Source: an uncultured Clostridia bacterium (GTDB lineage Bacteria; Bacillota; Clostridia; Oscillospirales; Ruminococcaceae). From it: a stretch of DNA of 64,000 nt. Made by a program: the position numbers and the translations under genes. This document shows, in pieces, positions 2,021-46,572 of this stretch. Every line of letters starts with the position of its first letter. Position 1 is the stretch's first letter. The DNA lies in NCBI GenBank assembly GCA_946567425.1, contig CAMNXF010000003.1:1-64000 (forward strand), given 5' to 3'. Under the pieces are notes generated by a model that made no database searches, was not told where the DNA came from, and saw nothing but the letters and a program-made list of their open reading frames with translations.

Positions 2021-2130
2021 CGCTCCGCGCACCGGGCGGCTTTCGCCGCCCTAGCCGAGCTATCTTGCTCCGTTCCGCTCGGTTCGCTCTCTCCACCTCA
2101 CAAGTCAGCTCGCTTGGCTGCGTATTTTGT
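2021..2130 (-). repeat. Family A structured intergenic element, copy 1
   Basis: It carries the shared block CGCTCCGCGCACCG and a hairpin GGGCGG-CGAAAG-CCGCCC when read on the transcribed strand. Arms GAGCTATCTTG and CAAGTCAGCTC pair with two mismatches. It lies directly upstream of the small membrane protein and its family C module. Sense orientation relative to the downstream gene. Confidence 0.85.
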
Positions 2131-2218
2131 TTGTTGCTCTTGGAAACAGTTTAAAGCTGCGCTTTAGTTTGTGGCTTTTGAATATAGAATTTCTCCCTTA
2201 ATCATATCATATATTCAC

Positions 2219-2893
2219 TCAAATGTCAACATTTACCGCCCGTTTCCCCATGACCCAACTTGCAGCGACCACCGCCGCAGTCAGTGCGGGAAGTCCCGCA
2301 TAGCAGATTATCCGCAGCGCCGCCGTTCCGATATCTCCCATGAATATCATAAACGTAAGCCAAATCATCGCCGCTGCGAGAAGTACCATAAAGCCGATAT
2401 ACACTGCCGTAGTCGACTTTGCGCCAAAGCAGTAGCCGAGCGTGAACGTCGGCAAAAGCGCGATCGCCTGCACCATACACATACACAGCGGCAGCGCGAG
2501 CATAGGCTCGAGCGGTATGCCGAAGATCACCGCCAGAACTGCGTTCATAACAAGCGACATCAGCGTGAGCAGACCGAGCACCACGCCCATAGCCGAGAAT
2601 TTCGCACCGACTATTTTGCCGCCCGTCAGCGGCATTGTGCGCTGCATTTTCGACCAGCCGCTGCGTTCGTCATAGCCGAGAGTGTTCACCATGAACGACG
2701 AACAGAGCGTTATCGAGATATAGTTGGCGAAACCGTACACAAAAACGGAGATTTCGACGGGAGGGATTGCTTCTTCGACCGCCATTCCACCGCCCATCAG
2801 CATAAGCATTGCCGTGGGCAGCAACATTATAGCCAGAGCGCCGAATATCTGAAACCTCACTCCGTAAAGATCCTTAAGCACCAAACCTTTCAT
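2219..2893 (-). CDS. ABC-2 type transporter permease
   Basis: About 224 residues with six predicted hydrophobic segments spread over the whole length and almost no soluble domain, as in ABC-2 permeases. The ATG at 2893 overlaps the stop of the preceding permease (TGATG), which indicates translational coupling; a TTG two codons earlier is the alternative start. With the adjacent permease and the upstream ATPase it would form one exporter. The substrate cannot be read from sequence. YtrA-controlled systems of this type often relate to cell-envelope stress or peptide antibiotics (family knowledge). Confidence 0.8.
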   Translation of the reverse strand: MKGLVLKDLYGVRFQIFGALAIMLLPTAMLMLMGGGMAVEEAIPPVEISVFVYGFANYISITLCSSFMVNTLGYDERSGWSKMQRTMPLTGGKIVGAKFSAMGVVLGLLTLMSLVMNAVLAVIFGIPLEPMLALPLCMCMVQAIALLPTFTLGYCFGAKSTTAVYIGFMVLLAAAMIWLTFMIFMGDIGTAALRIICYAGLPALTAAVVAASWVMGKRAVNVDI

Positions 2894-3585
2894 CAGCAAA
2901 CGTCCCCTTTCTTAACCCTTTCCAGCAGAACGAAGTAGAATATTACATACAGCGCCGTCGAGATACCGAGCAGGATAAGCAGCAGCCACCCGTTTGAAAG
3001 CAGCGTGATAAAGCCGCTTAAAAGGCTCTCCGTTTCCTCGGTTAACACGTTACAGAGCACCATTATAGGCAACACAAGACCGAACCCGAACACCAATCCC
3101 ACTACAAGCCCCGCCTTTTCGGCGCTCTTAAAGTCGATAACAAAAGGATTGACTATCCATTCTATCGAACCGCACGACGACGCCAGCACCATTATTATCT
3201 TCACCGTTTCAAGCGTAAAAAATCTCCTGTCGAACACGCTCATCACAAGCTGCATTATTATGCACATTACCAGACCTATCCCGATGGTGATGACGTTTTT
3301 CAGCAGCTCCGATGTCACAAACATATTCCTCGATATACCGCCCGCGAGCGTTATATCCGTAAATCTGCACTTGATATTCGCCTCAAGATTTCGTCCGAGC
3401 CACTCCATTATTATCGCAAGCACCACAAGCTGCAAGCCTATAAACAGCGTTGCCACAACGCCCTCGTTGTTCGGCACCAAGCTCACAAAGAACGCGCAGA
3501 ACGCCGTGCCCAGTACGGCGGTTATCCCCGCCGCGATAAACCATTTCTTGTTAAGCAAAAAATTGCCGTATAATATACCTTTCAT
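2893..3585 (-). CDS. ABC-2 type transporter permease
   Basis: A 230-residue, six-segment integral membrane protein. The start is supported by AAGGGG five bases upstream of the ATG. It is weakly similar in layout to the next permease, so the exporter may be a heterodimer of two membrane subunits. A family A element separates it from the upstream ATPase gene. That is unusual inside an operon and could modulate relative expression of ATPase and permeases. Confidence 0.8.
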   Translation of the reverse strand: MKGILYGNFLLNKKWFIAAGITAVLGTAFCAFFVSLVPNNEGVVATLFIGLQLVVLAIIMEWLGRNLEANIKCRFTDITLAGGISRNMFVTSELLKNVITIGIGLVMCIIMQLVMSVFDRRFFTLETVKIIMVLASSCGSIEWIVNPFVIDFKSAEKAGLVVGLVFGFGLVLPIMVLCNVLTEETESLLSGFITLLSNGWLLLILLGISTALYVIFYFVLLERVKKGDVC

Positions 3586-3604
3586 AATTACCCCTTATCT
3601 GAAA

Positions 3605-3705
3605 GCGCTCCGCGCACCGGGCGGCATAGCCGCCCTAGCCGAGCAGCATTACCTGAGCTCCACTGCGGCAATACTGCTCGCTTGCGCTACGCTTAGCTGC
3701 ACCTT
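3605..3705 (-). repeat. Family A structured intergenic element, copy 2
   Basis: It carries GCGCTCCGCGCACCG and the P3 hairpin GGGCGGC-TAT-GCCGCCC. The long arm differs from other copies: GAGCAGCATTACC pairs with GGCAATACTGCTC. The change on one side is matched by a change on the other. Located between the ATPase and permease genes, in sense orientation. Confidence 0.85.
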
Positions 3706-3772
3706 TTGTTTTTTGCTCTTAACCATAGAATTTCTCCCCTGAATGCCGACGATCTTTACACGCCTTTACCGC

Positions 3773-4612
3773 CTATTCCTTAACATAGAACACCATAATT
3801 TCCTCGATAGTCGGCGCGTCCGCGGGGATATCGGGGTATTTATGCGCGTTCGTCGTCAATACCTCATTCTGAAATCTTCCTTTGCGCACTCCGATAATAT
3901 CCGCCTTGTCGATACGCATAAGCTGCTCGTCGGTGCACTTGAGTATTCTGTGACGCTCCATCATCTCGTTGCGCTCCTCGGTGAACATTATCTCGCCCTT
4001 GTGGATAAAGCAGATATAGTCCGCGATATGCTCCAGATCGCTCGTGATATGCGTCGAAATAAGTATCGAATGACTTTCGTCCTGCATAAACTCCAAGAAA
4101 ATATCCAGAATCTCCGCGCGCATCACGGGATCGAGACCGCTCGTCGGCTCATCGAGTATCAGCAGCTGCGTATCATGCGATAGTGCCGCCGCTATCGACA
4201 GCCGCATAACCATACCGCGCGAGAAGCTCTTGAACCGCTTGTCAAGCGGCAGCTCAAACTTCGTCATATACCCGAAAAAGCGCTCGCTGCGCCACGTCTT
4301 GTAGATACCGCGCATCACCTTGTCAAGCTGCCTTACCGTAAGGTTTTCGGGGAACGACAGTCCGTCAAACACCACCCCGATTTTCTCCTTTGTCGCAGGA
4401 GACAGCTCGTGGGCGTTCTCGCCGAGCACCGTAATGCTCCCCTCGCCCCTTTTCAGCAGCCCGAGTATCGCCTTTATCGTCGTTGATTTGCCCGCGCCGT
4501 TCTCACCGATAAAGCCCACCACCGAACCGCACGGCACGTTGAACGATACGTTCTTCAGGCTAAACTGCGGATATGTCCGCGTTATATTCTTCACTTCAAT
4601 ACAATTTTCCAT
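3773..4612 (-). CDS. ABC transporter ATP-binding protein
   Basis: 279 residues. Walker A is GENGAGKST near residue 36, the signature region reads FSRGMVMRLS, and Walker B is LLILDEPTSGLD, followed by the H-loop STH. The signature has SRGM where SGGQ is usual, a variation common in this YtrB/BcrA-like subgroup. The C-terminal 70 residues are an accessory region that may contact the permeases. An AGGAGAT site precedes the ATG. It energises the two ABC-2 permeases encoded downstream and lies in the operon headed by a GntR regulator. Confidence 0.92.
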   Translation of the reverse strand: MENCIEVKNITRTYPQFSLKNVSFNVPCGSVVGFIGENGAGKSTTIKAILGLLKRGEGSITVLGENAHELSPATKEKIGVVFDGLSFPENLTVRQLDKVMRGIYKTWRSERFFGYMTKFELPLDKRFKSFSRGMVMRLSIAAALSHDTQLLILDEPTSGLDPVMRAEILDIFLEFMQDESHSILISTHITSDLEHIADYICFIHKGEIMFTEERNEMMERHRILKCTDEQLMRIDKADIIGVRKGRFQNEVLTTNAHKYPDIPADAPTIEEIMVFYVKE

Positions 4613-4628
4613 AATATCTCCTATCTAA

Positions 4629-4745
4629 AACGCTCCGCGCACCGAGCGACATAGCCGCCCTAGCCGAGTTACCTTGCTCCGTTCCGTTTGCTTCGCTCTC
4701 TCCACTTCACAAGGTAACTCGCTTGCGCTCCGCTTCGATGCGTGT
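4629..4745 (-). repeat. Family A structured intergenic element, copy 3
   Basis: Shared block ACGCTCCGCGCACCG. Long arms GAGTTACCTTG and CAAGGTAACTC pair perfectly, with CTTGCGCTCCGCTTCG at the far side. It begins about 15 nt upstream of the ATPase start codon, in sense orientation. A family C module follows at about 4781-4800. Confidence 0.88.
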
Positions 4746-4794
4746 TTTGCTTGTTGCTCCCGGCTATTGAAATTCTTCCCTGTTTGTTGACGGA

Positions 4795-4992
4795 AGACAA
4801 TTGCGCTTATTCGGCAGTGCGGCTCAGGAGCGGTTTGCCCGCCACCCCTATTCTCCATTTAACCGCAACGCTGCTGCCAACCAACCGGGGCGGACGTGCA
4901 AACCGCTGTCGGCGGGGCACTCGCAGCCGCCCCGCTGCGCGGCACAAATTTAAACGCACCTGCTCCCGTTAAGGCGACTGCTCGCGCCCCGC
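4795..4992 (-). repeat. Family B GC-rich element, copy 1
   Basis: Shares GGGGCGCGAG and the block GCGGTTTGCACGTCCGCCCC with the element at 15380-15581. It starts immediately after the stop codon of the GntR gene. Internal complementary stretches (AAACCGCT and AGCGGTTT) suggest a long hairpin. Confidence 0.65.
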
Positions 4993-5364
4993 CTATTCGC
5001 CGTAAAACATCGCGAGAATTTCCGTGAGCTCCTCTTTTGTAACGCCGCTCTGGCGCGCGATATCGGCGGCCTTGCCGAGATGTTCCTCGATCTCGCGGAG
5101 ATTATTCTCGCGCATCATCTCGGGATCGGCAGCCGAAACAAAGCTCCCGCGCCCCGTAAACGACTGGATAAATCCCTCGCTCTCCAGTATCTCATACGCG
5201 CGTTTGGTCGTGATAACGCTCACGCGCAAGTCCTGCGCGAGCGCTCTCATGGACGGCAGCGCATCGCCCTCGTGCAGCTCGCCGCCGAGTATCAGACCCT
5301 TGACCTGCGCGGCGATCTGCTCATAGATAGGCACGCCGCCCGAATTTGTGATTATAATATTCAT
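4993..5364 (-). CDS. GntR-family transcriptional regulator, YtrA subfamily
   Basis: About 123 residues when started at the ATG at 5364, which has GAGGGGTAC upstream; a longer frame to 5475 lacks a binding site. Residues of about 8-75 form the GntR winged helix (PIYEQIAAQVKG, then PSMRALAQDLRVS, then the wing GRGSFV). The short helical C-terminal domain of about 45 residues is typical of YtrA, which lacks the large effector domain. It is the first gene of the ABC exporter operon and probably represses it. A 25-bp palindrome overlaps the -10 element of the operon promoter. Confidence 0.92.
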   Translation of the reverse strand: MNIIITNSGGVPIYEQIAAQVKGLILGGELHEGDALPSMRALAQDLRVSVITTKRAYEILESEGFIQSFTGRGSFVSAADPEMMRENNLREIEEHLGKAADIARQSGVTKEELTEILAMFYGE

Positions 5365-5506
5365 AAAGTACCCCTCGGGACGTATGTCCCCCGCCGCTCG
5401 TTCCACTTGGCTGTGCACTTCCGAAGCGAACCTTGCGGCGTTCCTTTGCAAAGATTTACCGGTTTGAGAATACACTTCTTAATACCACAAAGTACAACTT
5501 GTTTTT

Positions 5507-5531
5507 ATTGTGTATATCTCATATATACAAT
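5507..5531. promoter_or_regulatory. Palindromic operator, probable GntR/YtrA site
   Basis: Near-perfect 25-bp palindrome. Outer halves ATTGT...ACAAT and inner TATAT...ATATA flank the centre CTC, with one mismatched pair. It overlaps the -10 element (5529-5534) of the promoter that reads into the GntR gene, a position suited to autorepression. Confidence 0.75.
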
Positions 5532-5557
5532 ATATCACATCAGCACAAATTTGTCAA
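5529..5557 (-). promoter_or_regulatory. Sigma-A promoter of the GntR/ABC operon
   Basis: On the minus strand: TTGACA (5552-5557), a 17-bp spacer and TATATT (5529-5534). It leaves a 5' untranslated region of about 155 nt before the GntR start. Confidence 0.88.
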
Positions 5558-5617: not shown

Positions 5618-6205
5618 CTAGTCCTCCGCTTCCAATTCTATCACCTCGTCCGCAAGAGCGGCGCATTCGTCCTTGTCGTGAGTGACGAGCACCACGGTCT
5701 TTCCCGCGGACTTTCTGTGGCAATAAGCCATTACAGTGCGCTTTGTCGTCTCGTCGAGACCCTTAAACGGCTCGTCCAGAAACAACGCGTCATACTCCGC
5801 AAGCAGCGCCCTCACCAGTGCAGTTCGGCGTTTCATTCCGCCCGAAAGCGTCCTAACCGCCTTGTCCGCGCACTCTGCGAGACCCACCTCGGCAAGCTCG
5901 GCGGCTATATGTTCCTTTGTGAACCTCTTGCCCGTCACAAGCCGTATATTTGCGCTTACGGTAAGATTTTCGCACAATCTCTCCTCTTGAAACACCGCGC
6001 TTATCCGCTCCCCGTCGAAGATCACCTCGCCGCTGTCGGGCTTCACAAGCCCCATAAGCACATTCAGCAGCGTGCTTTTGCCGCATCCCGAACGCCCCAG
6101 CACCGCCGTCACCTTTCCCTCCGCGAACTCGCGGGTGAAATTATTCAACACCATATTTTCACCAAAACTTTTTGTGATTTTAACGGCTTTGAGCAACACT
6201 ATCAC
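5618..6205 (-). CDS. ABC transporter ATP-binding protein, NitT/TauT type
   Basis: About 195 residues, short for this family (usually about 240-260). It keeps Walker A (GRSGCGKST), signature (LSGGMKRR), Walker B (FLDEPFKGLD) and the H-loop (VTHD). The missing length is mainly C-terminal, and the Q-loop region is compact. The start is ambiguous: GTG at 6205 or the GTG/TTG two to three codons later, with AAGGGG upstream. It powers the lipoprotein-dependent importer encoded just upstream. A family B element separates it from the permease gene. Confidence 0.9.
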   Translation of the reverse strand: MIVLLKAVKITKSFGENMVLNNFTREFAEGKVTAVLGRSGCGKSTLLNVLMGLVKPDSGEVIFDGERISAVFQEERLCENLTVSANIRLVTGKRFTKEHIAAELAEVGLAECADKAVRTLSGGMKRRTALVRALLAEYDALFLDEPFKGLDETTKRTVMAYCHRKSAGKTVVLVTHDKDECAALADEVIELEAED

Positions 6206-6440
6206 CCCTTCTCCGCAGTATCGCCTGACAGACGCAGCCGCCTCGGGCGGGGCGCGACGGTTTGCCTTAAGGTAAAGTCTGCGTCACCGAACGATCTCTG
6301 CGCGGAGCGCGGCAAGCCGGAGTGCCCCGCCCCCTCAGCTTTGACGAGTGTACCGCTCGGCACAGCCGCTACGGCGCATTTGCATCATTTGGCTACGTTA
6401 TCGGCAGCTGTAATGAGCGGGGCGCGAGGAGAAGCCCCCG
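6206..6440 (+). repeat. Family B GC-rich element, copy 2
   Basis: Contains TCTCTGCGCGGAGCGCGGCA, the reverse complement of a block in the 15380-15581 copy, and ends with GAGCGGGGCGCGAG. It is therefore inserted opposite to the other two relative to transcription. It lies between the permease and ATPase genes. No open frame with a binding site was seen. Confidence 0.55.
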
Positions 6441-7211
6441 TTACATTCGCTCCACTCGTCTCTGCAGCAACGCCATGAGCGCCGTAAACGCTTTTTCGCA
6501 CAGCCAGCTCAGCAATATCACCGTAAGCGTCCACGCGAACAAATCCGCCGTCTCCAGATACACCTTAGCCTCGAACAGCTTTTCGCCAATCGAGCCATCC
6601 GGTATTCCGATAACCTCCGCTGCCGCTCCCGACTTCCAACATAGACCTATCGCCAACCGCGAAGCCGAGCGGAAATACGGCAGCAGCTGCGACAGATACA
6701 CCCCGACGAACCGCCGCCATACGGGTATCCCGAACACCTCGGACATCTCCCTGAGTTTCGGGTCGAGAGCGTCGATTCCTTCCAGCATATTTGAATAAAC
6801 AATCGGCACGCATATCATAAACGACACCAGCACCGACAAGTCCTTAGACCCTATCCATATCAATGCCAGTATCGTGAACGACGCGACGGGTATCGACTTC
6901 ATCACGCTTATCAGCGGCGAAATCAGCGTCCGTACAAACCGCAGCTTACCGGCCGCGAACGCCAGCAAACAGCCGCAGGTCAGCCCGAGCGCGAACCCGA
7001 ACAGTATCCGCGCCGCCGAAAATCCTACGCTCTGCCAAAAATCGCCCGTCGCCACGAGAACGTACAGCTGCTTCACAACGTCAACGGGCGAAACAAGCAA
7101 TATCTTGCTGTTCAGCTTAACAGCGGCAATCTGCCAAACGATCAGCCAGAACAGCATGCTCACGGAGGTGATGAGAATTTTTTTCAGAGCCGCCTTAGCC
7201 CGGGAACTCAT
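6441..7211 (-). CDS. ABC transporter permease, NitT/TauT (SsuC-like) type
   Basis: 256 residues with about six hydrophobic segments. The cytoplasmic coupling region near residues 145-180 reads EGIDALDPKLREMSEVFG, a form of the EAA motif seen in SsuC/TauC/NrtB permeases. It overlaps the 3' end of the lipoprotein gene by 17 nt, so translation is probably coupled; no clear separate binding site is visible. It would carry an anion or small organic substrate delivered by the lipoprotein. Confidence 0.9.
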   Translation of the reverse strand: MSSRAKAALKKILITSVSMLFWLIVWQIAAVKLNSKILLVSPVDVVKQLYVLVATGDFWQSVGFSAARILFGFALGLTCGCLLAFAAGKLRFVRTLISPLISVMKSIPVASFTILALIWIGSKDLSVLVSFMICVPIVYSNMLEGIDALDPKLREMSEVFGIPVWRRFVGVYLSQLLPYFRSASRLAIGLCWKSGAAAEVIGIPDGSIGEKLFEAKVYLETADLFAWTLTVILLSWLCEKAFTALMALLQRRVERM

Positions 7212-9933: not shown

Positions 9934-9978
9934 AGGCAAAAGCTCGTAGGTGCGATTTATCGCTTCGGCGACTTTTGC
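9934..9978 (-). repeat. Family A element, reduced copy
   Basis: Only the closing stem is kept: GGCAAAAGC pairs with GACTTTTGCC around a short interior. The P2 and P3 arms are absent. Sense orientation, about 20 nt upstream of the AI-2E transporter start. Confidence 0.7.
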
Positions 9979-10006
9979 CGCTGCGTATTTTGTTTCTTGC
10001 TCTTGG

Positions 10007-10875: not shown

Positions 10876-11742
10876 TTATTTATTTTCTGATTCCGTCTCG
10901 CCCGTCTGCTCCTGCGGCGGAATATACTCTATTATGTTCACCGAGCTGATAATTATATCGGTGACAGGCATATATTTCTCGCCGTTTTTGTCGGTAGTTA
11001 CTTCCGCACCAGATATCAAATCAAGCACGTCCAAACCCTCGAAGACCTGTCCGAAAACAGTATATCCGCCGTCCCAGAGGGGATATCCGCCTATGGTATT
11101 ATACTTCTCGGCAACCTCGTCGCTTGCCTTTTCTATCATATCGGCAAGATTTGTGTAATATGTCGCCATTGCGTTAAAGGAAGAATAGTTGGGATCACTT
11201 TCCGTCATACTCTCAGTCTCCGCTGTGTACTTGGCAGCTTCCTCGCGTATGGTCGCGGGGTCATACTGCTTGATATCCGTCTGCGTCTTGGCGTTCACTA
11301 TGTAGAACTGCGTGGTGTTCATACCGTCTATATTCGCATAGCCGAGTGCACCGTAGAAGTTGCGCGCGTCCGCGCTCGTCTCTATCGGGAACGACCCCGT
11401 ATTGCCGACGAGCGCCGATCCACCCGTACCGTCGCCGTACAAGGAACCGCCCTGTATGCACATATCCTTTGCGACCTTGTGTATCTTTAAGCCGTTGTAA
11501 TAGCCCTGCTTGGCGAGCTTCTCAAAATTATCCACCGCGACGGGCGCGATATTCGGGAACAGCTTTGCGCGTATCACTCCGTAGTCCTCTATAACTATCT
11601 CAGCGATCTTATCCCCCTCGGCAAACGTCACCGTATTGGAAATATTGCCCGCGGGAGTACCGCTGCAGCCCGCAAGCCCAAGCACACATGACGCTGCCAG
11701 AGCCGCGCTTAAAATTACCTTGCACACGTTTCTCAGCTTCAT
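10876..11742 (-). CDS. Cyclophilin-type peptidyl-prolyl isomerase lipoprotein, copy 1
   Basis: 288 residues. The signal peptide ends in lipobox LAGC. The cyclophilin fold is recognisable by IQGGSLYGDGTGG and the TQFYIV strand. The usual catalytic Arg of the F/IHRV motif is Lys (IHKVAKD), so activity may be reduced. An insertion of about 60 residues rich in Glu/Tyr/Thr lies between the TQFYIV strand and the C-terminal GGYTVFGQVFEGLDV motif. It probably helps fold exported proteins at the outer face of the membrane. It starts 3 nt after the stop of copy 2, so the two are co-transcribed. Confidence 0.9.
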   Translation of the reverse strand: MKLRNVCKVILSAALAASCVLGLAGCSGTPAGNISNTVTFAEGDKIAEIVIEDYGVIRAKLFPNIAPVAVDNFEKLAKQGYYNGLKIHKVAKDMCIQGGSLYGDGTGGSALVGNTGSFPIETSADARNFYGALGYANIDGMNTTQFYIVNAKTQTDIKQYDPATIREEAAKYTAETESMTESDPNYSSFNAMATYYTNLADMIEKASDEVAEKYNTIGGYPLWDGGYTVFGQVFEGLDVLDLISGAEVTTDKNGEKYMPVTDIIISSVNIIEYIPPQEQTGETESENK

Positions 11743-11745
11743 AAT

Positions 11746-12603
11746 TTAACCCTCCACATACTCGGATACGTAAACGTTCTTTATGATAATGTCCTTTACC
11801 GGCTGTGATTTCTCACCGCTGCTGTTTTCTTCCACCTCGGTCGCGGAAATACTGTCGATAACGTCAAATCCCTCGTACACCTGTCCGAAAACGGTGTAAT
11901 CGCCGTCAAGCGAGGGCGTACCGCCTTTTTCATTATAGCGCGCCTTTACGCCGTCCGCGAACCCGTTGTACTTGTCGAGCTCCTTGTTAAGATTATCCTT
12001 AAGCGAACTGTAATATTCGACCGCGTCTGCGTTACCGTCGTACTCCTTGATATATTCGTCGCACAAGGAAACGTTCTCTTTATAAACCGCAATCTGATCG
12101 TCAAGAGAGGTTTTGCTGTTGACCACGTAGAACTGCGTGGAATTTTGCCCCGCTGCGTTCGCGTAGCAGAGCGCTCCGTAGAAGTGGCACGCCTTTTCCG
12201 ACGTTTCAATGCCAAACGAACCGCCGTTCACAAGCGCGTCGCCTCCCGTACCGTTGCCGTTGAGCGAACCCCCTTGGAACATAAAGTCCGACATAACGCG
12301 GTGTATTTTCAAGCCCTTATAATATCCGCTGTCGCAAAGCCGCCAGAAATTCTCCACTCCCTGCGGCGCGATATCCGCGAACAGCACCGCCTTTATCGTG
12401 CCGTAGTCCTCGACCTCGAACGTTGCCACAAGATCGCCCGCCTTCGGTGAAACGTCCTCAATATTGGTATGAGTCACGCTTGCCGACGCGTCAAAAGCTT
12501 CCTTATCCCACACATCACCGTTATTTTTCGAGCACCCCGTAAGCAGCATACCCGCCGCAAGCGCCGTGCACATAAAAAATTTTTTCAGCTTATTCAACTT
12601 CAT
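11746..12603 (-). CDS. Cyclophilin-type peptidyl-prolyl isomerase lipoprotein, copy 2
   Basis: 285 residues. Signal peptide with lipobox LTGC. This is the best preserved of the three copies: IHRVMSDFMFQGG keeps the catalytic Arg and the FxxQGG strand, TQFYVV is the next core motif, and YTVFGQVYEGFDV closes the domain. As in copy 1, a long charged insertion of about 70 residues separates the last two motifs. The mature protein is expected to be anchored outside the membrane. It lies in the middle of the tandem array, 17 nt after copy 3. Confidence 0.92.
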   Translation of the reverse strand: MKLNKLKKFFMCTALAAGMLLTGCSKNNGDVWDKEAFDASASVTHTNIEDVSPKAGDLVATFEVEDYGTIKAVLFADIAPQGVENFWRLCDSGYYKGLKIHRVMSDFMFQGGSLNGNGTGGDALVNGGSFGIETSEKACHFYGALCYANAAGQNSTQFYVVNSKTSLDDQIAVYKENVSLCDEYIKEYDGNADAVEYYSSLKDNLNKELDKYNGFADGVKARYNEKGGTPSLDGDYTVFGQVYEGFDVIDSISATEVEENSSGEKSQPVKDIIIKNVYVSEYVEG

Positions 12604-12620
12604 CTTCCCCGCCTTTCCCT

Positions 12621-13466
12621 TTATTCAGAACTTTCAGTCGAGCCCGACTGTCCGCTATCGGAAGAACCCGCCGGAAGACCCTCCGGGTGTAGCAGCGGAA
12701 ACTCGTCCACATCATCGCCCTCGCTAAATGTCGAGATCGTCACGCTCTTTATTTTGACCTCGTTCGAAGCCTGTCCTTTATCGTCCGCAGGTATATGCGT
12801 CAACTTATCCACCACGTCGAACCCGAGATAGGTCTGCCCGAACACCGTGTACACGCCCGCCATTCCGAACACGCCGCCCGCCTCATAAAACTTGTCGAAC
12901 AGCTCAAGCATTTTCGCGCGTTCGGTTTCGTCCTCGATATTTGCCGCGCTGCTCTTCAACTCGTTGATTGCGTCGGCGGTGAGGTTTTCCGCGTCGTTGT
13001 TACAAACGAACCATCGCGCGTCACAATAGCCCTGCTGCTCCGAATATCCGAGCAGCGCACCCTTGAACGGCCAGAGCTCGGGAGTATATTCGTTCAGCAT
13101 AAGCCCTTTCTCGTCGTCTCTTCCTATATACTGTCCCTTATCGTTGATCCGTCCGCCCGCAAGGAAATACACGTCGTTCTGAACGCCCTTTACAATGCTG
13201 TCATTATAATACCCCGCGTTCGCCTTTTCAATAAACGACTTCACCTTATTCGGAGCGTACTCTTCGTACAGCACCGCCCTTATCTCGCCGTATTCAGTAT
13301 CAAACACCGCGATCGTATCCCCATCTTTCGGCGGCGACAACTGAATAAAATCGTTGCTCATCTCCTTAAAATCATAACTCATCATTCCGTTCGGCGGCGC
13401 ACTTGAGCACCCCGAAAGTGTCACCGTCATTACAGCCGCGATAACCGCGGCAAATATCTTCTTCAT
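12621..13466 (-). CDS. Degenerate cyclophilin-like lipoprotein, copy 3
   Basis: About 281 residues from the ATG at 13466 (AGGAGA seven bases upstream). Lipobox LSGC. It aligns over the whole length with copies 1 and 2 (IAVFDTEYGEIRAVLYEEYAPNKV; YTVFGQTYLGFDVVDKL). The active-site strands have changed: IHRV is VKGV, the QGG motif is LAGG, and TQFYVV is ARWFVC. It is therefore probably not an active isomerase and may act as a binding or chaperone subunit. It is the first gene of the three-gene array and ends in a Ser/Gly tail. A family A element precedes it. Confidence 0.82.
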   Translation of the reverse strand: MKKIFAAVIAAVMTVTLSGCSSAPPNGMMSYDFKEMSNDFIQLSPPKDGDTIAVFDTEYGEIRAVLYEEYAPNKVKSFIEKANAGYYNDSIVKGVQNDVYFLAGGRINDKGQYIGRDDEKGLMLNEYTPELWPFKGALLGYSEQQGYCDARWFVCNNDAENLTADAINELKSSAANIEDETERAKMLELFDKFYEAGGVFGMAGVYTVFGQTYLGFDVVDKLTHIPADDKGQASNEVKIKSVTISTFSEGDDVDEFPLLHPEGLPAGSSDSGQSGSTESSE

Positions 13467-13489
13467 CTTCACTTCTCCTATCTTTAAAC

Positions 13490-13605
13490 GCTCCGCGCAC
13501 CGAGCGGCATAGCCGCCCTAGCCGAGTTACCTTGCTCCGTTCCGTTCGCTACGCTCTATCCACTTCACAAGGCAACTGCTTGCGCTCCGCTTTGCTGCGT
13601 GTTTT
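13490..13605 (-). repeat. Family A structured intergenic element, copy 4
   Basis: Shared block ACGCTCCGCGCACCG, P3 hairpin with TAT loop, long arm GAGTTACCTTG against CAAGGCAACT. It lies about 25 nt upstream of the copy 3 cyclophilin start. Two family C modules follow at about 13630-13683. Confidence 0.88.
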
Positions 13606-13895: not shown

Positions 13896-13901
13896 TAAAA
13901 T

Positions 13902-13970
13902 GCAAAAGCTCGCACCGAATCACTTCGTTCACTCCTCTGCGGCAATACTGCTCGCTTGCACCTTTTGCAG
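13902..13970 (-). repeat. Family A element, partial copy
   Basis: Closing stem GCAAAAGCTCGCA pairs with TGCACCTTTTGC. The interior keeps the P3-like TCACTTCGTTCA and one half of a P2 arm (CAATACTGCTCGC), but the other half is missing. It lies right after the cysS stop codon. Confidence 0.7.
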
Positions 13971-13974
13971 CGCG

Positions 13975-15366
13975 TTATGCCTTCTTAACTATAGTTCCCT
14001 GTCTGGTTTCCTCGACTATATATCCCATTTCGGTGATCTTATCGCGGATAGCGTCCGCCTTTGCGAAGTCTTTTGCCTTGCGCGCGGCTTTTCTCTCCTC
14101 TATCAGCGCCGCGACCTCCGTGGGTATATCGCCGTCTTTCTTATTATACAACAAACCCAGTACGTTTGTCAATGCCGAAAATTCATCTTGAAAAACTTTA
14201 ATATCACCCTTGGTCACGTCTTGTGAGCCTAGAACCGTATTTATCTTGCGCACAAGCTCAAAAACCGCCGCAATGCCGTCTGCCGTATTGAAATCATCGT
14301 CCATAGCCTTGTTGAAACTTTCACGCGCCGTCTTTACATCCTTGAGAACCGCCGAACTTGCCTCGCCGTCCTTTGCCGCGCCGAGAACTCTCTCCATACT
14401 ATCGCGGCAGGTGTACAGCCTTGCGAGCGCCGCCTTGCAGCTCTCGATGACCTCAAGCGTGTAATTGAGCTGACTTCTGTAATGCACCGACAGCAGCATA
14501 AAACGAATAGGCTCGTAGCCGTACTTAGCCGACAAATCGCGCACCATAAAGAAATTTCCCGCCGACTTGGACATCTTCTTATTATCCACGTTGAGCATTC
14601 CGTTGTGCATCCAAATCTTCGCAAGCGGTGAGCCCGTCGCGCACTCGCTCTGCGCGATCTCGTTCTCGTGATGCGGGAAGATCAGATCGCTTCCGCCGCC
14701 ATGAATGTCGATCGTATCACCAATATAGTGTCTCGACATCGCCGAACACTCGATATGCCAGCCGGGACGTCCGTTCCCGAACGGCGACTCCCAGTACGGC
14801 TCGCCGGGCTTTGCGGCTTTCCACACTGCGAAATCCATGGGATCGCGCTTTTTCTCGCCGATCTCGATACGCGCTCCCGCCTTAAGATCATCCAGCGGCT
14901 GATGTGAGAGTTTTCCATACTCGGGGAACTTTGACGTATCAAAATAAACATCGCCGTCCGCCTCGTAAGCGTAGCCCTTATCCACAAGCGTTTTTACGAT
15001 ATCGATAATTATCCCCATATTCTCTGTGACTTTTGGGTGAATATCGGCGCGGCGGACGTTCAGTCCCTCCGCGTCCGTGAAGTACTCCTTTATCGCGCTC
15101 TCGGAGACCTCCGACGACGTTTTCCCAAGCTCATTCGCCTTTTTGATTATCTTGTCGTCAACGTCGGTAAAGTTCTGCACATACAGTACCTTGTACCCGC
15201 GAAACTCCAGATACCGCCGCAACGTATCGAACACGCACAAGGCGCGCGCGTTTCCTATGTGTATCAGATTATACACAGTCGGTCCGCAGCAATATATCTT
15301 CACCGTGCCATCTTCAATCGGCACAAGCTCCTCTTTTTTTCTTGTCATCGTATTGTAAATGAACAT
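13975..15366 (-). CDS. cysS: Cysteinyl-tRNA synthetase
   Basis: 463 residues, normal length. The N-terminal catalytic motif CGPTVYNLIHIGNAR carries the zinc Cys and the HIGH signature; the KMSKSAGN loop is at about residue 265. Zinc ligands HIECSAMS and HGGGSDLIFPHHENE are present. The C-terminal helical DALR-type domain follows. The enzyme charges tRNA-Cys in the cytoplasm. It lies 215 bp downstream of cysE in the same direction with no visible promoter between them, so it is probably transcribed from the cysE T-box promoter. AAGGAGAG precedes the ATG. Confidence 0.97.
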   Translation of the reverse strand: MFIYNTMTRKKEELVPIEDGTVKIYCCGPTVYNLIHIGNARALCVFDTLRRYLEFRGYKVLYVQNFTDVDDKIIKKANELGKTSSEVSESAIKEYFTDAEGLNVRRADIHPKVTENMGIIIDIVKTLVDKGYAYEADGDVYFDTSKFPEYGKLSHQPLDDLKAGARIEIGEKKRDPMDFAVWKAAKPGEPYWESPFGNGRPGWHIECSAMSRHYIGDTIDIHGGGSDLIFPHHENEIAQSECATGSPLAKIWMHNGMLNVDNKKMSKSAGNFFMVRDLSAKYGYEPIRFMLLSVHYRSQLNYTLEVIESCKAALARLYTCRDSMERVLGAAKDGEASSAVLKDVKTARESFNKAMDDDFNTADGIAAVFELVRKINTVLGSQDVTKGDIKVFQDEFSALTNVLGLLYNKKDGDIPTEVAALIEERKAARKAKDFAKADAIRDKITEMGYIVEETRQGTIVKKA

Positions 15367-15379
15367 ACTTTCTCTCCTT

Positions 15380-15581
15380 AACCTTAAAACTCCGCGGTAT
15401 CGTCATTGCGGCGAAAAGCGGTTCGCGCGCCGCCCCTTACCGCATCAACTTTACCCGCTTGCCGAACCCGACCGGGGCGGACACGCAAACCGCCGCCGCG
15501 GAGCACTCGGTCTTGCCGCGCTCCGCGCAGAGACCGTTCCGCAGCGCTGCAAATACCCCAAGGCAAGCCCTCGCGCCCCGC
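15380..15581 (-). repeat. Family B GC-rich element, copy 3
   Basis: On the minus strand it starts with GGGGCGCGAG directly after the cysE stop and contains GCGGTTTGCGTGTCCGCCCC, as in copy 1. An internal hairpin is possible between GCGGAGCGCGG and CCGCGCTCCGC-type stretches. It lies between cysE and cysS. Confidence 0.65.
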
Positions 15582-16253
15582 TCAATCGCCGCCGTGTTCC
15601 TTAAAGTTTTCAAGCTCCGCGCGAAGCTCGTCGACCTCCTTAGTTAGCCTGTCAATATACATAAGATGGCTGCAAAGTATCTCCGAAACGGGATCAGGAA
15701 CGTGTATCTGATCGAGATCGCTGTTAACGATCTTGATACCGTCGCGCTTGACGACCCTCGCGGGAACGCCGACCGCCGTACAGTTGGGCGGAACCTCCTC
15801 GAGCACAACGGCGTTCGCGGCGATCTTCGAGTTATCCCCGATCCTGAACGGACCGAGAACTCGCGCGCCCGCGCCAACCATAACATTATTCCCGAGCGTC
15901 GGGTGACGTTTTCCGACGTCCTTGCCTGTACCGCCGAGCGTCACATTCTGATAAAGCGTGCAGTTATCGCCGATCTCCGTAGTCTCGCCGATAACGACTC
16001 CCGCACCATGGTCAATAAACAAACCCTTTCCTATTTTCGCCCCGGGGTGAATTTCTATTCCTGTCTTGTGCCGTGAACGTTGCGATATCCACCGCGCGAT
16101 AAAAAAATGCCCGCGCTCGTGAAACCAATGTGCTATTCGGTAGCTCCGCACCGCCTTGTACGACGGGTACAAGAAAAGAACCTCCCAAGCCGAACGAACG
16201 GCGGGGTCACGCGCCTTTATCGACGCAATTTCCTCTTTCAAGCACTCAAACAT
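15582..16253 (-). CDS. cysE: Serine O-acetyltransferase
   Basis: 223 residues. The N-terminal helical part (SIKARDPAVRSAWEV) is followed by the left-handed beta-helix of hexapeptide repeats, with catalytic and substrate motifs IDHGAGVVIGET and QNVTLGGTGK. The C-terminal stretch after about residue 180 is a charged helix, probably part of oligomer contacts. It makes O-acetylserine, the carbon skeleton for cysteine. AAGGAGATAAA precedes the ATG. It is the first gene of the cysE-cysS operon behind a T-box leader with UGGA in the tRNA-binding bulge, fitting control by uncharged tRNA-Cys. Confidence 0.96.
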   Translation of the reverse strand: MFECLKEEIASIKARDPAVRSAWEVLFLYPSYKAVRSYRIAHWFHERGHFFIARWISQRSRHKTGIEIHPGAKIGKGLFIDHGAGVVIGETTEIGDNCTLYQNVTLGGTGKDVGKRHPTLGNNVMVGAGARVLGPFRIGDNSKIAANAVVLEEVPPNCTAVGVPARVVKRDGIKIVNSDLDQIHVPDPVSEILCSHLMYIDRLTKEVDELRAELENFKEHGGD

Positions 16254-16272
16254 TTTATCTCCTTATTTGAAT

Positions 16273-16377
16273 GGAAAAGCTCGCACCGGTCGGCTTTCGC
16301 CGCCCTATCCGAGTTACCTTGCTCCGTTACGGTCATTATGCCCCTTACGCTGAACAAGGCAATTGCGACTTTTACCA
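16273..16377 (-). repeat. Family A element within the cysE leader
   Basis: GGAAAAGCTCGCACCGG, P3 hairpin closed by a GAAA loop on the transcribed strand, and arms GTTACCTTG / CAAGGCAAT. Its outer stem reads GCGACTTTTACC. It lies between the T-box terminator and the cysE start codon, within a stretch of about 240 nt. Additional family-specific sequence (TTGCTTACGTTGCTTTGCTGC) continues to about 16470. Confidence 0.82.
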
Positions 16378-16496
16378 CTGCGTCATTAACGCCTTGTTAT
16401 TTTGCTTACGTTGCTTTGCTGCTTGCAGCTTGTTTTGATTGTTGCTCTTGGCGACAGCTTAAAGGTGCGTGTTTCGATCGCCTCTCTTGGCTATAA

Positions 16497-19180: not shown

Positions 19181-19248
19181 CGTCAAGAGCGGCAAACAAC
19201 ATACGCAGCTTTAAACTGTCGCCAAGAGCCATAAGCAAAACACTCTGC

Positions 19249-19360
19249 TAAGCGGAGCGCAAGCGAGTTGCCTTGTGAAGTGGAGAGAGTGAAGCGAACG
19301 GAACGGAACAAGGCAGCTCGGCTAGGGCGGCTATGCCGCCCGGTGCGCGGAGCGCTTTCA
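19249..19360 (+). repeat. Family A structured intergenic element, plus-strand copy
   Basis: GCGAGTTGCCTTG pairs with CAAGGCAGCTCGGC; P3 is GGGCGGC-TAT-GCCGCCC; the outer stem is AGCG...GCGCA with TGCGC...AGCGCT. This is the only copy upstream of a plus-strand gene, and it is inverted on the chromosome accordingly. Family C modules follow at 19372-19430 before the CYTH gene. Confidence 0.88.
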
Positions 19361-19442
19361 AATAAACACCACTTTTGTCAACGTTAAGGGGATAAAACAA
19401 GATCCTTAGTCAACATTCAGGAGAGGTAGAGATTATAAAATT

Positions 19443-22696: not shown

Positions 22697-22715
22697 TTTT
22701 TCTCCTATTCTATAT

Positions 22716-22820
22716 GGCAAAAGCTCGCACCGGCTCACTTCGTTCGCCTAGCCAACGGCAACTCCTACGCTTCAATTCGTTCCGCCCCGTCGTTGACGTT
22801 GCTTGCGACTTTTGCCGCTG
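22716..22820 (-). repeat. Family A structured intergenic element, copy upstream of HAD gene
   Basis: The outer stem is GGCAAAAGCTCGCA with GCGACTTTTGCC. The P2 arm here is CAACGGCAACT against GTTGACGTTG, different from the GAGTTGCCTTG type but still paired. P3 reads GGCTCACTTCGTTCGCC. Sense orientation, ending about 20 nt before the HAD start. Confidence 0.85.
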
Positions 22821-22886
22821 CGTGTTTTGTTTACCGCTCTTAGCGACAGTTTAAGGATTGCTCGTTTGGTTTGTCGCTTAATGCCT

Positions 22887-38590: not shown

Positions 38591-38609
38591 ATTTCCTCCT
38601 TATTTTAAA

Positions 38610-38719
38610 GGCAAAAGCCCGCACCGGTCGGCTTTCGCCGACCTAGCCGAGTTGCCTTGCTCCGCTCCGTTAGCTTCGCTCTCTCCGCTGCACAAGGCAA
38701 CTCGCTTGCGACTTTTGCC
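38610..38719 (-). repeat. Family A structured intergenic element, reference copy
   Basis: The clearest copy. P1: 38610-38623 (GGCAAAAGCCCGCA) with 38707-38719 (TGCGACTTTTGCC). P2: 38649-38659 (GAGTTGCCTTG) with 38693-38703 (CAAGGCAACTC), perfect. P3: 38626-38632 and 38637-38643 closed by GAAA on the transcribed strand. Sense orientation, about 15 nt upstream of the pepV binding site. Extra T-rich sequence and a family C module continue to about 38815. Confidence 0.92.
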
Positions 38720-38848
38720 GCTGCTTTATTATTGCCTTGCTTTTTTGCTTGCGTTACTTTGCTGCACCTTTTGTTTGCTGCTCTTGACTGTTGAATTTCT
38801 TCCCTGTTTGTTGATTTTAATTACACGCCACGCCAAACAGAAACTTAG

Positions 38849-40667: not shown

Positions 40668-40671
40668 CCCG

Positions 40672-41208: not shown

Positions 41209-41227
41209 ACTTCCTCCTGATTTAAAA

Positions 41228-41337
41228 GGCAAAAGCTCGCACCGGCTTACTTCGTTCGCCTAGCCAAGCTGCCTTGCTCCGTTTCGGTCGCTGCGCTCCC
41301 TACACTACGCAAGACAGCTTGCTTGCGACTTTTGCCG
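41228..41337 (-). repeat. Family A structured intergenic element, copy upstream of NUDIX gene
   Basis: Outer stem GGCAAAAGCTCGCA with TGCGACTTTTGCC. P2 here is CCAAGCTGCCTTGC with GCAAGACAGCTTG, changed on both sides relative to GAGTTGCCTTG. P3 contains TTACTTCGTTCGCC. It ends about 20 nt before the NUDIX start, sense orientation. Confidence 0.88.
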
Positions 41338-41386
41338 CTGCACCTTTTGTTTGTCATTCTTGGCGACAGTTTAAAGACTGCGTACT

Positions 41387-44020: not shown

Positions 44021-44074
44021 GAATTGTTCCTCCGAAATATTGAACTGCATTATTTTAAAAATTCTTACATTATT

Positions 44075-45832
44075 TTACATTTTTTCGGGCGCTTCTATTT
44101 TCAGCAGCGTCAGAACGTTTTTGATAACGGTTTTCACCGCACAGCACAGCGCGAGCCGCGACAGCTTCACTTCCGTTTCTGCGTCCTTTATCGGGCAGCT
44201 GTCGTAGAACTTGTGGAACGTCTGCGCAAGCTCGTATACATATTTTGTCAATTTAAACGGACTGTATTCCTCAGCAGCCTCATTTATCAGCTCGGGGAGC
44301 GCGGCTATTTTACGTATAAGCGCAAACTCCGGCTCTTCGGTGAACTTTACCTCACCGCCGCTGTACTTCATGCCGTTGTCCGCCATTTTCTCCAGAACGC
44401 GGCAAATTCTCGCGTGTGCGTACTGAACATAGAACACGGGGTTCTTGGAGCTTTCCTCGACGGCAAGGTCGAGGTCGAAATCAAGATGCGTGTTCGTGTC
44501 GCGCAGATTGAAAAAAAATCTCGCGTTGTCTATCGGCACTTCGTCAAGCAGCGTCGAGAGCGTTATCGCCTTTCCCGAACGCTTCGAGAGCTTGACCACC
44601 TCGCCGTCGCGCACGAGGTTCACCATCTGGCACATCACCACGTCAAGCCGTTTTTCGTCGATACCCATTGCCTGCAGGCAAATTCTCATGCGCTTTACAT
44701 ACCCGTGATGATCCGCGCCGAGCACGTCTATCGCCTTGTCGTAATTGCGTGTTACGAGCTTATTGTAATGATACGCTATATCGGGCACTATATAGGTCGG
44801 GAAGCCGTTCGAGCGCACAAGAACGAAATCCTGTTCACCGCCGAAATCGGTCGCGCGCAGCCAAAGCGCGCCGTCCTGTTCGTAGGTGTGACCGCCCGCC
44901 TTAAGGTGCTCGATGACCTCCTTGACCGCGCCGCTGTTATGCAGACTGCTCTCCTTGAACCAATTATCGTATTTTATACGGTACTTCAGCAGATCCGTCT
45001 CCAGCCGCTTCTCGTTTATCGGGAGCGCATATTCCACCAAAGCCGTCTGCCGAGCGTTCTCGTCCGCCTTGGCGAGAATATCGCCGCCGTTCTTGTCATA
45101 GTAGTTCTTCGCGTGCTCGATTATGTCCATTCCCAGATAAACGTCCTCGGGCATCGGGAACGTTTTCGTATCGCCGTAAATTGCCGCAGTAAACTTTTCC
45201 ATATCGTTTCCGCATTCCGCAGCGATCTTTTGTCCTTCTTCACCGCAGATCTGCATATAGCGTAGCGAGAGCGATTTCCCGAATTTGCCTATCTGATTTC
45301 CCGCGTCGTTTATATAAAACTCGCGGTCTGCGGTATAACCCGCCTCCTGTAAAAGCGACGCGAGACAATCGCCGATAGCGCCGCCGCGCGCATTCCCTAT
45401 ATGCATGGGACCCGTCGGGTTCGCCGAAACAAACTCGACCAGAACGCGCTTTCCCGCGCCAACGTCGGTCTTTCCGTAATCTGCGCCGAGTTTCAACGTG
45501 TTCGTAACTACCCCTGAAAACCAGCTCTCCCCGAGATAGAAATTCAAAAACCCGGGACCCGCGACCTCCGCCTTATCAAATCCCGTGCCGTCGAGCTTGA
45601 TCTCGTCGATTATCATCTGCGCCAGCGCTCTCGGATTGGTTTTCAGCGTCTTTGCCGAGACTAGCGCTGCGTTCGCCGAGAAGTCGCCGTGAGCGCTGTC
45701 CTGCGGCACTGTCACCTGAAACGCGGGCAGCGGCTCGGCTGATATTTTCCCCGCGTCGATCAGCTTGCCCAGTGCCTCCGTAATTATTTCCTTTACGCCG
45801 TTTTTCGCGTCCTTAACTGCATTATAATACAT
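44075..45832 (-). CDS. argS: Arginyl-tRNA synthetase
   Basis: 585 residues. The N-terminal Add-1-like domain is followed by FVSANPTGPMHIGNARGGAIGD (the HIGH motif is HIGN) and the C-terminal DALR anticodon domain (HARICRVLEKM). The KMSK-like region is KLSKRSGKAIT. It charges tRNA-Arg. AAGGAGG precedes the ATG. It lies between the DUF1934 gene and the YfhO gene in the same direction, so these are probably one operon, with family A elements in the gap upstream. Confidence 0.96.
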   Translation of the reverse strand: MYYNAVKDAKNGVKEIITEALGKLIDAGKISAEPLPAFQVTVPQDSAHGDFSANAALVSAKTLKTNPRALAQMIIDEIKLDGTGFDKAEVAGPGFLNFYLGESWFSGVVTNTLKLGADYGKTDVGAGKRVLVEFVSANPTGPMHIGNARGGAIGDCLASLLQEAGYTADREFYINDAGNQIGKFGKSLSLRYMQICGEEGQKIAAECGNDMEKFTAAIYGDTKTFPMPEDVYLGMDIIEHAKNYYDKNGGDILAKADENARQTALVEYALPINEKRLETDLLKYRIKYDNWFKESSLHNSGAVKEVIEHLKAGGHTYEQDGALWLRATDFGGEQDFVLVRSNGFPTYIVPDIAYHYNKLVTRNYDKAIDVLGADHHGYVKRMRICLQAMGIDEKRLDVVMCQMVNLVRDGEVVKLSKRSGKAITLSTLLDEVPIDNARFFFNLRDTNTHLDFDLDLAVEESSKNPVFYVQYAHARICRVLEKMADNGMKYSGGEVKFTEEPEFALIRKIAALPELINEAAEEYSPFKLTKYVYELAQTFHKFYDSCPIKDAETEVKLSRLALCCAVKTVIKNVLTLLKIEAPEKM

Positions 45833-45855
45833 ATTACGTCCTCCTTATTTAAAAA

Positions 45856-45960
45856 CGCTCCGCACACCAGTCGGCTTTCGCCGCCATAGCCCAGTTACCT
45901 TGCTCCGTTCGCTTCGCTCTCTCCACTTCACAAGGCAACTCGCTTGCACTCCGCTTCGCT
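45856..45960 (-). repeat. Family A structured intergenic element, copy upstream of argS
   Basis: ACGCTCCGCACACC, P3 with TTTC (GAAA in RNA) loop, long arm AGTTACCTTG against CAAGGCAACT, and the closing CGCTTGCACTCCGCTTCG. It begins about 10 nt upstream of the argS binding site, sense orientation. Confidence 0.85.
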
Positions 45961-46048
45961 GCACCTTTTGTTTGTTGCTTTTTGCGACAGTTTAAAGCTG
46001 CGTGTTTTGTCTGTTACTCTAGGCGGTTATTTAAAAAGCCGAAACTTA

Positions 46049-46462
46049 TTACATTTTCACCTTAATGCTTATCTCGTTCTCCGTCATAAGTCCCGAATTA
46101 ACGTCTATCGAATAACGCAGATGAACGTTCCCGCCCTTTTCGTTGAGCGAATTATTCAACTCGTAAGTTGTTATTCCGACCATGCACTCTCCGTACTCCG
46201 TTCCGTAGTGGCAGAAATGCCGCACTCCGTTCTCGAAAACCAGTCCCGAAAACGTTGAACCCGTCCTCGTCATGGTCATCATCTTCTCGTCTATCTTAAG
46301 CTGAGCGTGGCTGCCCTCGTAGCCCGTTGCCTCGCTCTCGTCATAATCTATATAATACGACCCGTTGTGGTACCGGAACTCCCCCCGCGTAAACAACTCC
46401 GACTCGTCCGTTATCCCGTCCGAGGTCTGCTTTATGTTCAGAAATATCGAACAATTATCCAT
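46049..46462 (-). CDS. DUF1934 family protein (YwiB-like beta-barrel)
   Basis: 137 residues with the beta-rich pattern of the YwiB/DUF1934 calycin-like fold: GEFRYHNGSYYIDYDES, a central TRTGSTFSGLVFE and a C-terminal TTYELNNSLNEKGGNVHLRYSID block. AGGAG precedes the ATG. Its function is unknown, but its place directly upstream of argS matches the ywiB-argS arrangement in Bacillus, which supports the family call. No signal peptide. Confidence 0.88.
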   Translation of the reverse strand: MDNCSIFLNIKQTSDGITDESELFTRGEFRYHNGSYYIDYDESEATGYEGSHAQLKIDEKMMTMTRTGSTFSGLVFENGVRHFCHYGTEYGECMVGITTYELNNSLNEKGGNVHLRYSIDVNSGLMTENEISIKVKM

Positions 46463-46485
46463 ATCTTTGATCTCCTTATTTTAAA

Positions 46486-46572
46486 GGCAAAAGCTCGCAC
46501 CGCACTGCTTTGCCGCGCTAACCAACGGTAACTCCTCCGCTTCGTCGTCACCGTTGCTTGCGACTTTTGCCG
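46486..46572 (-). repeat. Family A structured intergenic element, copy upstream of DUF1934 gene
   Basis: Outer stem GGCAAAAGCTCGCA with GCGACTTTTGCC. P2 is CCAACGGTAACTCC with GTCACCGTTG, a different paired sequence from the GAGTTGCCTTG type. P3 is GCACTGCTTTGCCGCGC. Subtype-specific CTTGCTTTTTTGCTTACGC follows on the far side. Confidence 0.85.

Follow-up and report, generated by a model that had tools for sequence, protein, structure and literature searches.

Interspersed repeats of bacteria are usually regarded as DNA parasites that affect mRNA only occasionally. In REP/REPIN elements with their RAYT enzymes, and in the single-stranded DNA (ssDNA) elements of the IS200/IS605 type, hairpins are recognised on one DNA strand. 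Integron attC sites have a conserved structure with little sequence conservation, are folded from one strand and lie in the same orientation as the genes, and ERIC elements occur in both orientations. Here we analyse a repeat, family A, found between positions 2,021 and 46,572 of a 64,000-nucleotide stretch of an uncultured Clostridia bacterium (contig CAMNXF010000003.1; hereafter the window), which an earlier note had described as a dispersed structured RNA-like element. The repeat has one architecture, its base pairs are changed on both sides between copies, its in-stem mismatches are asymmetric in favour of a folded sense strand, its orientation relative to genes is nearly fixed, and its copies are inserted relative to close relatives. 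From these comparisons we tentatively regard it as a small interspersed repeat restricted to one genus of uncultured gut bacteria; its copies have accumulated in operon gaps and in leaders, where they may act in cis as a folded module of the mRNA leader. This is the reading we would put first, with real reservation.

The repeat differs from the REP/RAYT and IS200/IS605 elements, which have one or two hairpins, in forming a three-way junction, and no intact Y1 transposase was found in the 12 genomes that carry copies. Unlike attC sites, it is flanked by chromosomal housekeeping genes and not by cassettes, as judged from gene content alone. The ERIC elements (IRU) of enterobacteria measure 127 bp, are co-transcribed with both neighbours, give a folded transcript and affect mRNA stability depending on orientation, and the consulted parts of that report list terminal repeats and target duplications (PMC2229807). 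ERIC is likewise a small interspersed repeat and shows that such elements can shape mRNA stability by orientation, but terminal repeats and target duplications of the ERIC type, as far as those parts describe them, were not recognised here, the orientation is near-fixed and the stems are wholly different between species. A modular parallel is BOX of Streptococcus pneumoniae, which is co-transcribed, folded, spread in bursts and has been proposed to resemble miniature inverted-repeat transposable elements (MITEs), according to the portion consulted (PMC3049150). The title of a table in that source gives pneumococcal repeats as over-represented between convergent genes (PMC3049150), whereas few copies of the present repeat lie in convergent gaps. 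A literature search, which included the consulted parts of PMC8040213 and of the bacterial ncRNA surveys PMC11109978 and PMC8632094, returned, among the records listed, no description that matches this element or one like it.

Fold, covariation and strand asymmetry

In the sense strand a closing stem, P1, encloses two exchangeable hairpins, P2 and P3, about the three-way junction. A typical copy has the layout 5'-GCAG-P1-AAGC-P2-GGCTA-P3-GG-P1'-TTTNARATAA-3', often with GGAG and a start codon next; the junction letters AAGC, GGCTA and GG are near-invariant, and the tail TTTNARATAA that follows P1' is A/T-rich. The three arms proposed in the earlier note were seen in most of 29 copies when only Watson-Crick (WC) pairs were allowed in folding, while plain RNAfold gave a clean three-arm fold for about half of the 13 window copies and misfolded the rest. 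The repeat family was also recovered in the window by a direct-repeat search.

A covariance model, as suggested in the earlier note, was built from seven aligned window copies with the three-stem structure assigned by hand, and searched against the bacterium's own genome (2.9 Mb) and its relatives. The own genome gave 53 matches at E<=0.1, some of them truncated, and with 51 matches at E<1e-3 the repeat is dispersed, multi-copy, short and non-coding, as MITEs are. In the window, 11 of the 13 copies listed earlier were matched end to end, namely the seven used for model building and four independent ones (2021, 3605, 22716 and 46486); the remaining two, 9934 and 13902, are by eye reduced versions that keep the P1 arms and have fewer or different internal arms.

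Three sets of copies were compared. Two of the 53 matches in the own set are weak (E 0.015 and 0.04); of these, L074 is coding-like and was scored as sense. The congener set holds 56 copies from nine genomes, taken from 40 stretches chosen among high scorers, with one tandem copy, L095:2557-2680, added from the genus search. The copy L086:3129-3249 was likewise added, from the search of the own genome. The sister set comprises 47 copies in 40 stretches from G121 and G139, among which eight orthologous pairs were compared. Five copies are common to the congener and sister sets; they were removed in the counts of G·T and A·C mismatches and of hairpin tips, which refer to 151 distinct copies, and are counted twice in the comparisons of GGA content, tip controls, P1 pairs and codon positions.

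The earlier claim that pairing is kept while the sequence changes was borne out in all three sets. In the own copies 22 of the 23 modelled pairs are changed on both sides, with a covariation score of 0.430 against 0.136 in shuffled and at most 0.10 in slid controls. All 23 pairs show two-sided changes both in the nine congener genomes (0.821 against 0.206 shuffled) and in G121 and G139, two of those nine, sampled in greater depth (0.669 against 0.165 shuffled), and the slid controls over the sets do not exceed 0.121; the alignments were fitted to the model, hence these scores are biased towards it. Arms are also exchanged as wholes, and covariation counts alone can then exaggerate stepwise compensation. 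P1 provides the cleaner evidence because its two strands are not local, whereas the changes in P2 and P3 are partly whole-arm replacement. Distinct P1 strand pairs number 24, 32 and 33 in the three sets, with at least eight WC pairs in 133 of 156 copies, a few of these strand pairs being extended or shifted through misfolding.

Single mismatches inside the stems point to the strand that folds. Under WC-only folding of the 151 distinct copies there are 128 G·T against 13 A·C mismatches, and 42 against 11 when counted by distinct contexts (p=2e-5). Near-same asymmetry was obtained when the reverse complement was folded (133 against 12), the asymmetry is weak in P3 alone (12:5), and G·G is also a frequent in-stem mismatch (30 in the own copies). 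Neutral decay of a DNA palindrome is expected to give equal numbers of G·T and A·C and does not account for this ratio; since G·T outnumbers A·C, it is the sense strand that folds. The selection that the earlier note proposed on the transcribed, folded strand is thus supported by the two-sided changes and the 128:13 ratio, whereas its assignment to RNA is less secure, since the selected molecule could be ssDNA.

Orientation and the ribosome binding site

Copies in same-strand gaps are sense in 127 cases and antisense in one over the three sets, five copies being in two sets. The common orientation relative to genes that had been noticed in the window therefore holds genome-wide and beyond, and neither random orientation nor an absence of covariation, which the earlier note had named as outcomes that would speak against it, appeared; the sole plus-strand copy of the window follows plus-strand genes. 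Gene neighbours were assigned by a home-made open reading frame scorer. For 49 of the 53 own copies the upstream gene shares the strand of the copy, for two it lies on the opposite strand and for two it could not be assigned. Both neighbours share the strand of 41 of the 56 congener copies, with four copies in convergent gaps, one in a divergent gap, one antisense and the rest cut by contig ends; for the 47 sister copies the figures are 37 with both neighbours on the same strand, eight divergent and two without an assigned upstream gene. The downstream gene is sense for 52/53 own, 48/53 assignable congener and 47/47 sister copies, including 11 copies in divergent gaps. No own or sister copy with assigned neighbours lies in a convergent gap.

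A Shine-Dalgarno sequence (SD) stands directly 3' of 10 of the 13 window copies, the exceptions being 2021, 19249 and 13902, and by a strict pattern directly after 38/53 own and 34/56 congener copies; its presence is frequent and not, as the earlier note had it, invariable. In three copies, L087, L105 and L102, an SD-like sequence apparently precedes the element by eye and the start codon follows it, which would place the folded element in the SD-start spacer. In L131 and L114 the element starts within the reading frame upstream of it, whose stop codon seems, again by eye, to be provided by the conserved GGCTAG.

The orientation could also arise if the repeat inserts in both orientations and purifying selection spares only sense copies 5' of genes, the fold having no further role. 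Indeed, the operon gaps of relatives are mostly short, and in folding calculations (n=102) the unpaired probability of the SD was 0.60 with the element, 0.64 without it, 0.57 with a shuffled core and 0.49 with a reversed core, the last being lower than with the intact core (p=5e-5). This effect is small against a ratio of 127:1, and the G·T:A·C asymmetry and the two-sided changes are left unexplained by such selection, which makes this account improbable in our judgement. For the same reason, a small computed effect, occlusion of the SD was rejected as the cause of the orientation bias. As modelled, the element leaves the SD open; it does not open it.

We also considered a regulatory RNA that would be read by a trans-acting factor, for example CsrA bound to GGA repeats in the P2 tips together with the SD. 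GGA runs do occur in the P2 tips, and CsrA is encoded in 11 of the 12 copy-bearing genomes, the exception being G119, which is 75% complete. However, GGA occurs 2.28, 2.39 and 1.30 times per core in the three sets, below the 2.93, 2.54 and 2.19 of mononucleotide shuffles, and genomes that lack copies encode CsrA just as often (38 of the 43 congeners have it). A role for such a factor is accordingly very improbable, and a CsrA sponge was discarded on the same two grounds.

The downstream genes have unrelated functions: 35 of 38 scanned proteins have a Pfam family, and among them are PheS, GyrA, LeuS, BipA, RbfA, GreA, DnaJ, PurM and CarA. At Rfam gathering thresholds no match was found in the window, and the sole family recognised among 10 loci inspected at E<=0.1 was a T-box next to one copy. 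A metabolite riboswitch was dismissed on these grounds. The T-box leader, L031:1741-1958 (minus strand), lies 5' of pheS, and because the copy lies between it and the pheS start on the same strand, this copy is placed in leader RNA.

Hairpin tips

The tips of the arms carry a further strand-specific feature. In the 151 distinct copies there are 316 hairpin loops, of which 204 are triloops, 139 GNA triloops and 17 GNRA tetraloops, whereas the proportions in shuffled copies, other intergenic DNA and coding DNA are 9-12% for triloops and 0-2% for GNA, and those in the reverse complement 48% and only 1%, respectively. The motif GCGNAGC occurs 191 times sense and three times antisense in the copies, compared with 36 and 26 times in the coding DNA of the window. 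In the parts of the literature consulted, DNA mini-hairpins with a GNA or GNNA loop on two G-C pairs are reported to be extraordinarily stable (PMC4686876; PMC6479982), and UNCG and GNRA tetraloops as strongly stabilising RNA helices (PMC3972237). As GNA tips typify stable DNA mini-hairpins, sense-strand ssDNA is a possible selected molecule.

These tips bear on the strongest rival explanation, a selfish element that is copied through folded sense ssDNA, or through RNA and its cDNA, with the fold selected for copying and any effect on the mRNA tolerated. The GNA tips (139/316) and the strand bias of GCGNAGC would fit copying through ssDNA, and a sense strand exposed by transcription, or an RNA intermediate, would account for the orientation. 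We see this as a possibility of some weight, though rather unlikely on the whole, in view of the enzymes and the inherited copies described below.

Distribution within the genus

A match at E<=0.01 was found in 16 of 43 genomes of one uncultured Oscillospiraceae genus, the own genome included, and by eye the copies are convincing in 12 of them (G000, G119, G120, G121, G129, G132, G133, G138, G139, G140, G143 and G146). G141 has diverged relatives of the repeat with the same P1 type, and the matches in G135, G127, G144 and, in a separate search only, G134 appear accidental. The genus search gave 64 copies in G133, 41 in G132 and 36 in G138, and a more permissive search 34 in G121 and 32 in G139. 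The wide searches used strict filters and kept the best first-look candidates only (81 per genome for the genus, 34 for the family and 11 for the order), so that their numbers and absences are bounds.

Under these filters no convincing copy was seen in 98 genomes of the family that belong to other genera, and three weak hits there, L052-L054, were rejected as coding or terminator sequence by appearance. The order-wide search of 294 other genomes, at least one of them of the same genus, gave one weak match, in G284 (L346, 22.5 bits). This genome is of a different family, and its sequence at L346:1481-1640 has a GGAGCGGAG-tipped hairpin enclosed by a long closing stem but no GGCTA junction; this structure is possibly a distant relative or convergent. 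A plain DNA search found the element in none of 20 relatives. One copy searched against phages and plasmids gave no match, nor did one 22-base P3 pattern against viral contigs, and a phage or plasmid origin was put aside on these searches. Within the bounds of these searches the repeat appears restricted to one genus.

Insertion sites and mobilising enzymes

The gap before argS measures 216 nt here. In the closest relatives, whose ArgS is 91-92% identical, it measures 23 nt (G141) and 31 nt (G122), and the extra sequence of the window stops just before GGAG. The named relatives by ArgS are assemblies of uncultured Oscillospiraceae/Clostridia. Short gaps are also seen at 24 of the 27 other argS loci displayed, while G140, G129 and G133 have different inserts there (L142, L162 and L146, respectively); since different species hold different inserts, the argS gap receives insertions repeatedly. 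Among the part of the window gaps that was compared, those before the DUF1934, NUDIX, HAD and M20 genes are short in at least one relative. The empty-site picture is complicated by G141, where a different small structured piece precedes the M20 gene and a longer stretch of unrelated sequence the NUDIX gene, and by G140 and G121, whose DUF1934 genes are preceded by other inserts. Several window sites that are occupied here thus correspond to short gaps in close relatives, which marks the copies as lineage-specific insertions. The reading of the earlier note needs this addition: selection on the fold is supported, and the element spreads by insertion as well.

Other multi-hairpin repeats of different sequence, L255 and L256 of G121, stand sense at the equivalent position with a TTAAAATAAGGAG-like tail, and the genus seems to hold several families of such repeats.

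No target-site duplication was recognised by eye in the argS comparison, where the relatives are too far for base-exact ends. P1 forms a terminal inverted repeat, but one that varies between species, and short DNA matches to P1 arms fall, by eye, on known copies. A transposase whose ends match the element, the remaining outcome named against the earlier note, was sought in part, the search for mobilising enzymes covering the Y1 transposase and reverse transcriptase families. Y1 transposase (PF01797) was found in none of 11 of the 12 copy-bearing genomes and as a fragment in G138, several of these assemblies being incomplete, and mobilisation by a Y1/RAYT or IS200/605 enzyme was rejected for want of an intact Y1. 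Reverse transcriptase (PF00078) is present in 8/12 copy-bearing and 9/31 other genomes (Fisher p=0.04). The bursts of copies, tandem copies and empty sites are what selfish copying would produce, and the association of reverse transcriptases agrees with an RNA and cDNA route. The near-absence of Y1 counts against selfish copying, however. G133, G138, G120 and G129 yielded no reverse transcriptase, but their assemblies are 73-89% complete, so that such an enzyme stays a candidate.

Evolution after insertion

G121 and G139, which are sister species, have eight copies with homologous flanks in common. The members of L322/L336, L317/L338, L321/L331 and L315/L344 differ by whole arms and agree over much of the remainder, single base pairs are changed on both sides in L318/L330 and L309/L339, and L340 is a tandem duplicate of what is single in L314. 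With the structure of the first member as reference, 26 of 370 pairs are changed on both sides and kept, 18 changed on one side and kept and 60 broken, and 68/406 unpaired positions are changed; as the broken pairs are largely arm replacement, this count is no proof of stepwise compensation.

Identity is 419/456 in P1, junction and tail and 366/471 in the arms, and in the downstream genes 1422/1790 at third codon positions and 3381/3580 at first and second positions. When L307/L329, with distant genes, and L309/L339, with no codon count, are left out, P1, junction and tail retain 313/345 against 1255/1485 at third positions (p=0.003). Constraint on P1, junction and tail in inherited copies is suggested by this comparison, and its support is modest. 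Most inherited copies retain P1 and tail, which would be unexpected for dead insertions of a selfish element.

Copies in the window

Most window copies are on the minus strand and were delimited with the covariance model. The copy at 2006..2138 lacks the 5' strand of P1, is followed by a C/B-type unit and has no SD directly next to it, whereas that at 3591..3701 has a P2 of the GAGCAGTATT type and the SD AAGGGG, and that at 4616..4742 has the P1 type AAGCGGAGCGCA. Further minus-strand copies precede the genes for a cyclophilin-type PPIase (13475..13599), a HAD hydrolase (22702..22822, with a P2 of the AACG type), an M20 peptidase (38596..38725, the best model score), a NUDIX protein (41214..41342), argS (45841..45963) and a DUF1934 protein (46472..46577), and the copy at 16259..16382 lacks the P2 base and has an extra module 5'. 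The only plus-strand copy, at 19243..19369, lies between two plus-strand genes. The two reduced versions, recognised by eye on the minus strand and negative with the model, are 9934..9979, which has P1 arms and a single short hairpin and precedes an AI-2E transporter gene, and 13901..13974, at the 3' end of the CysRS gene and with no SD after it.

C units of about 40 nt, with the core GAGCAACAAACAAAA...CGCAGC, lie 5' of most window A copies, as in the example at 45985..46024 (minus strand, found by repeat search and gap inspection), and all 14 C members detected in the window adjoin A copies. The last ~28 nt of the element, the 3' strand of P1 and the tail, are partly duplicated directly after four own copies: L080 (4611-4740), L094, L066 and L069. 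By eye, a second, GC-rich type of intergenic repeat (GCGGGGCGCGAG-like) apparently recurs at 4612-4993, 6205-6441 and 15366-15582, and three adjacent genes of similar length at 10876-13472, one of them for the cyclophilin-type PPIase, have internal repeats in common.

Discussion

Selection on the fold and mobility both hold for this element, because it is a spreading repeat with lineage-specific insertions. If it acts as a module of mRNA leaders, the compact junction would hold upstream sequence off the ribosome binding site, into which the tail often runs directly, the SD would stay open beside the folded element, and the downstream cistron would gain a stable 5' edge. In this way the element might tune how single cistrons decay or are translated, with no need of gene-specific information. 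Arms required merely as hairpins could then be exchanged freely.

Several observations weigh against a role as leader module. SD openness with the intact core is hardly different from that with a shuffled core (p=0.18) or with no core (p=0.08), so that an effect on translation draws no support from these calculations. Adjacency to the SD may be a mere consequence of short gaps. The GNA tips are of the DNA type, and a purely RNA-level role does not explain them. Arms are swapped whole between the sister species. P1 and tail exceed third codon positions in four of six comparable close pairs and the order is reversed in L315/L344 and L317/L338, and gene conversion between copies could give the same retention of P1 and tail. 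Our confidence in the leader module is lowered by this disagreement among pairs and by the association of reverse transcriptases with copies. A combined scheme, which we regard as distinctly less probable, is a mobile element that would copy itself through a GNA-capped, folded sense single strand, enter only transcribed strands ahead of genes and swap its arms, while junction, P1 and tail are held as an mRNA module.

Taken together, the orientation and the strand asymmetry suggest that it is the folded sense strand on which selection acts, in about 12 species with very different stems. If the mRNA reading is true, the genus would have a generic, gene-independent leader module before dozens of its cistrons, and if copying through a single strand is true, it would harbour a mobile element that copies itself in this way.

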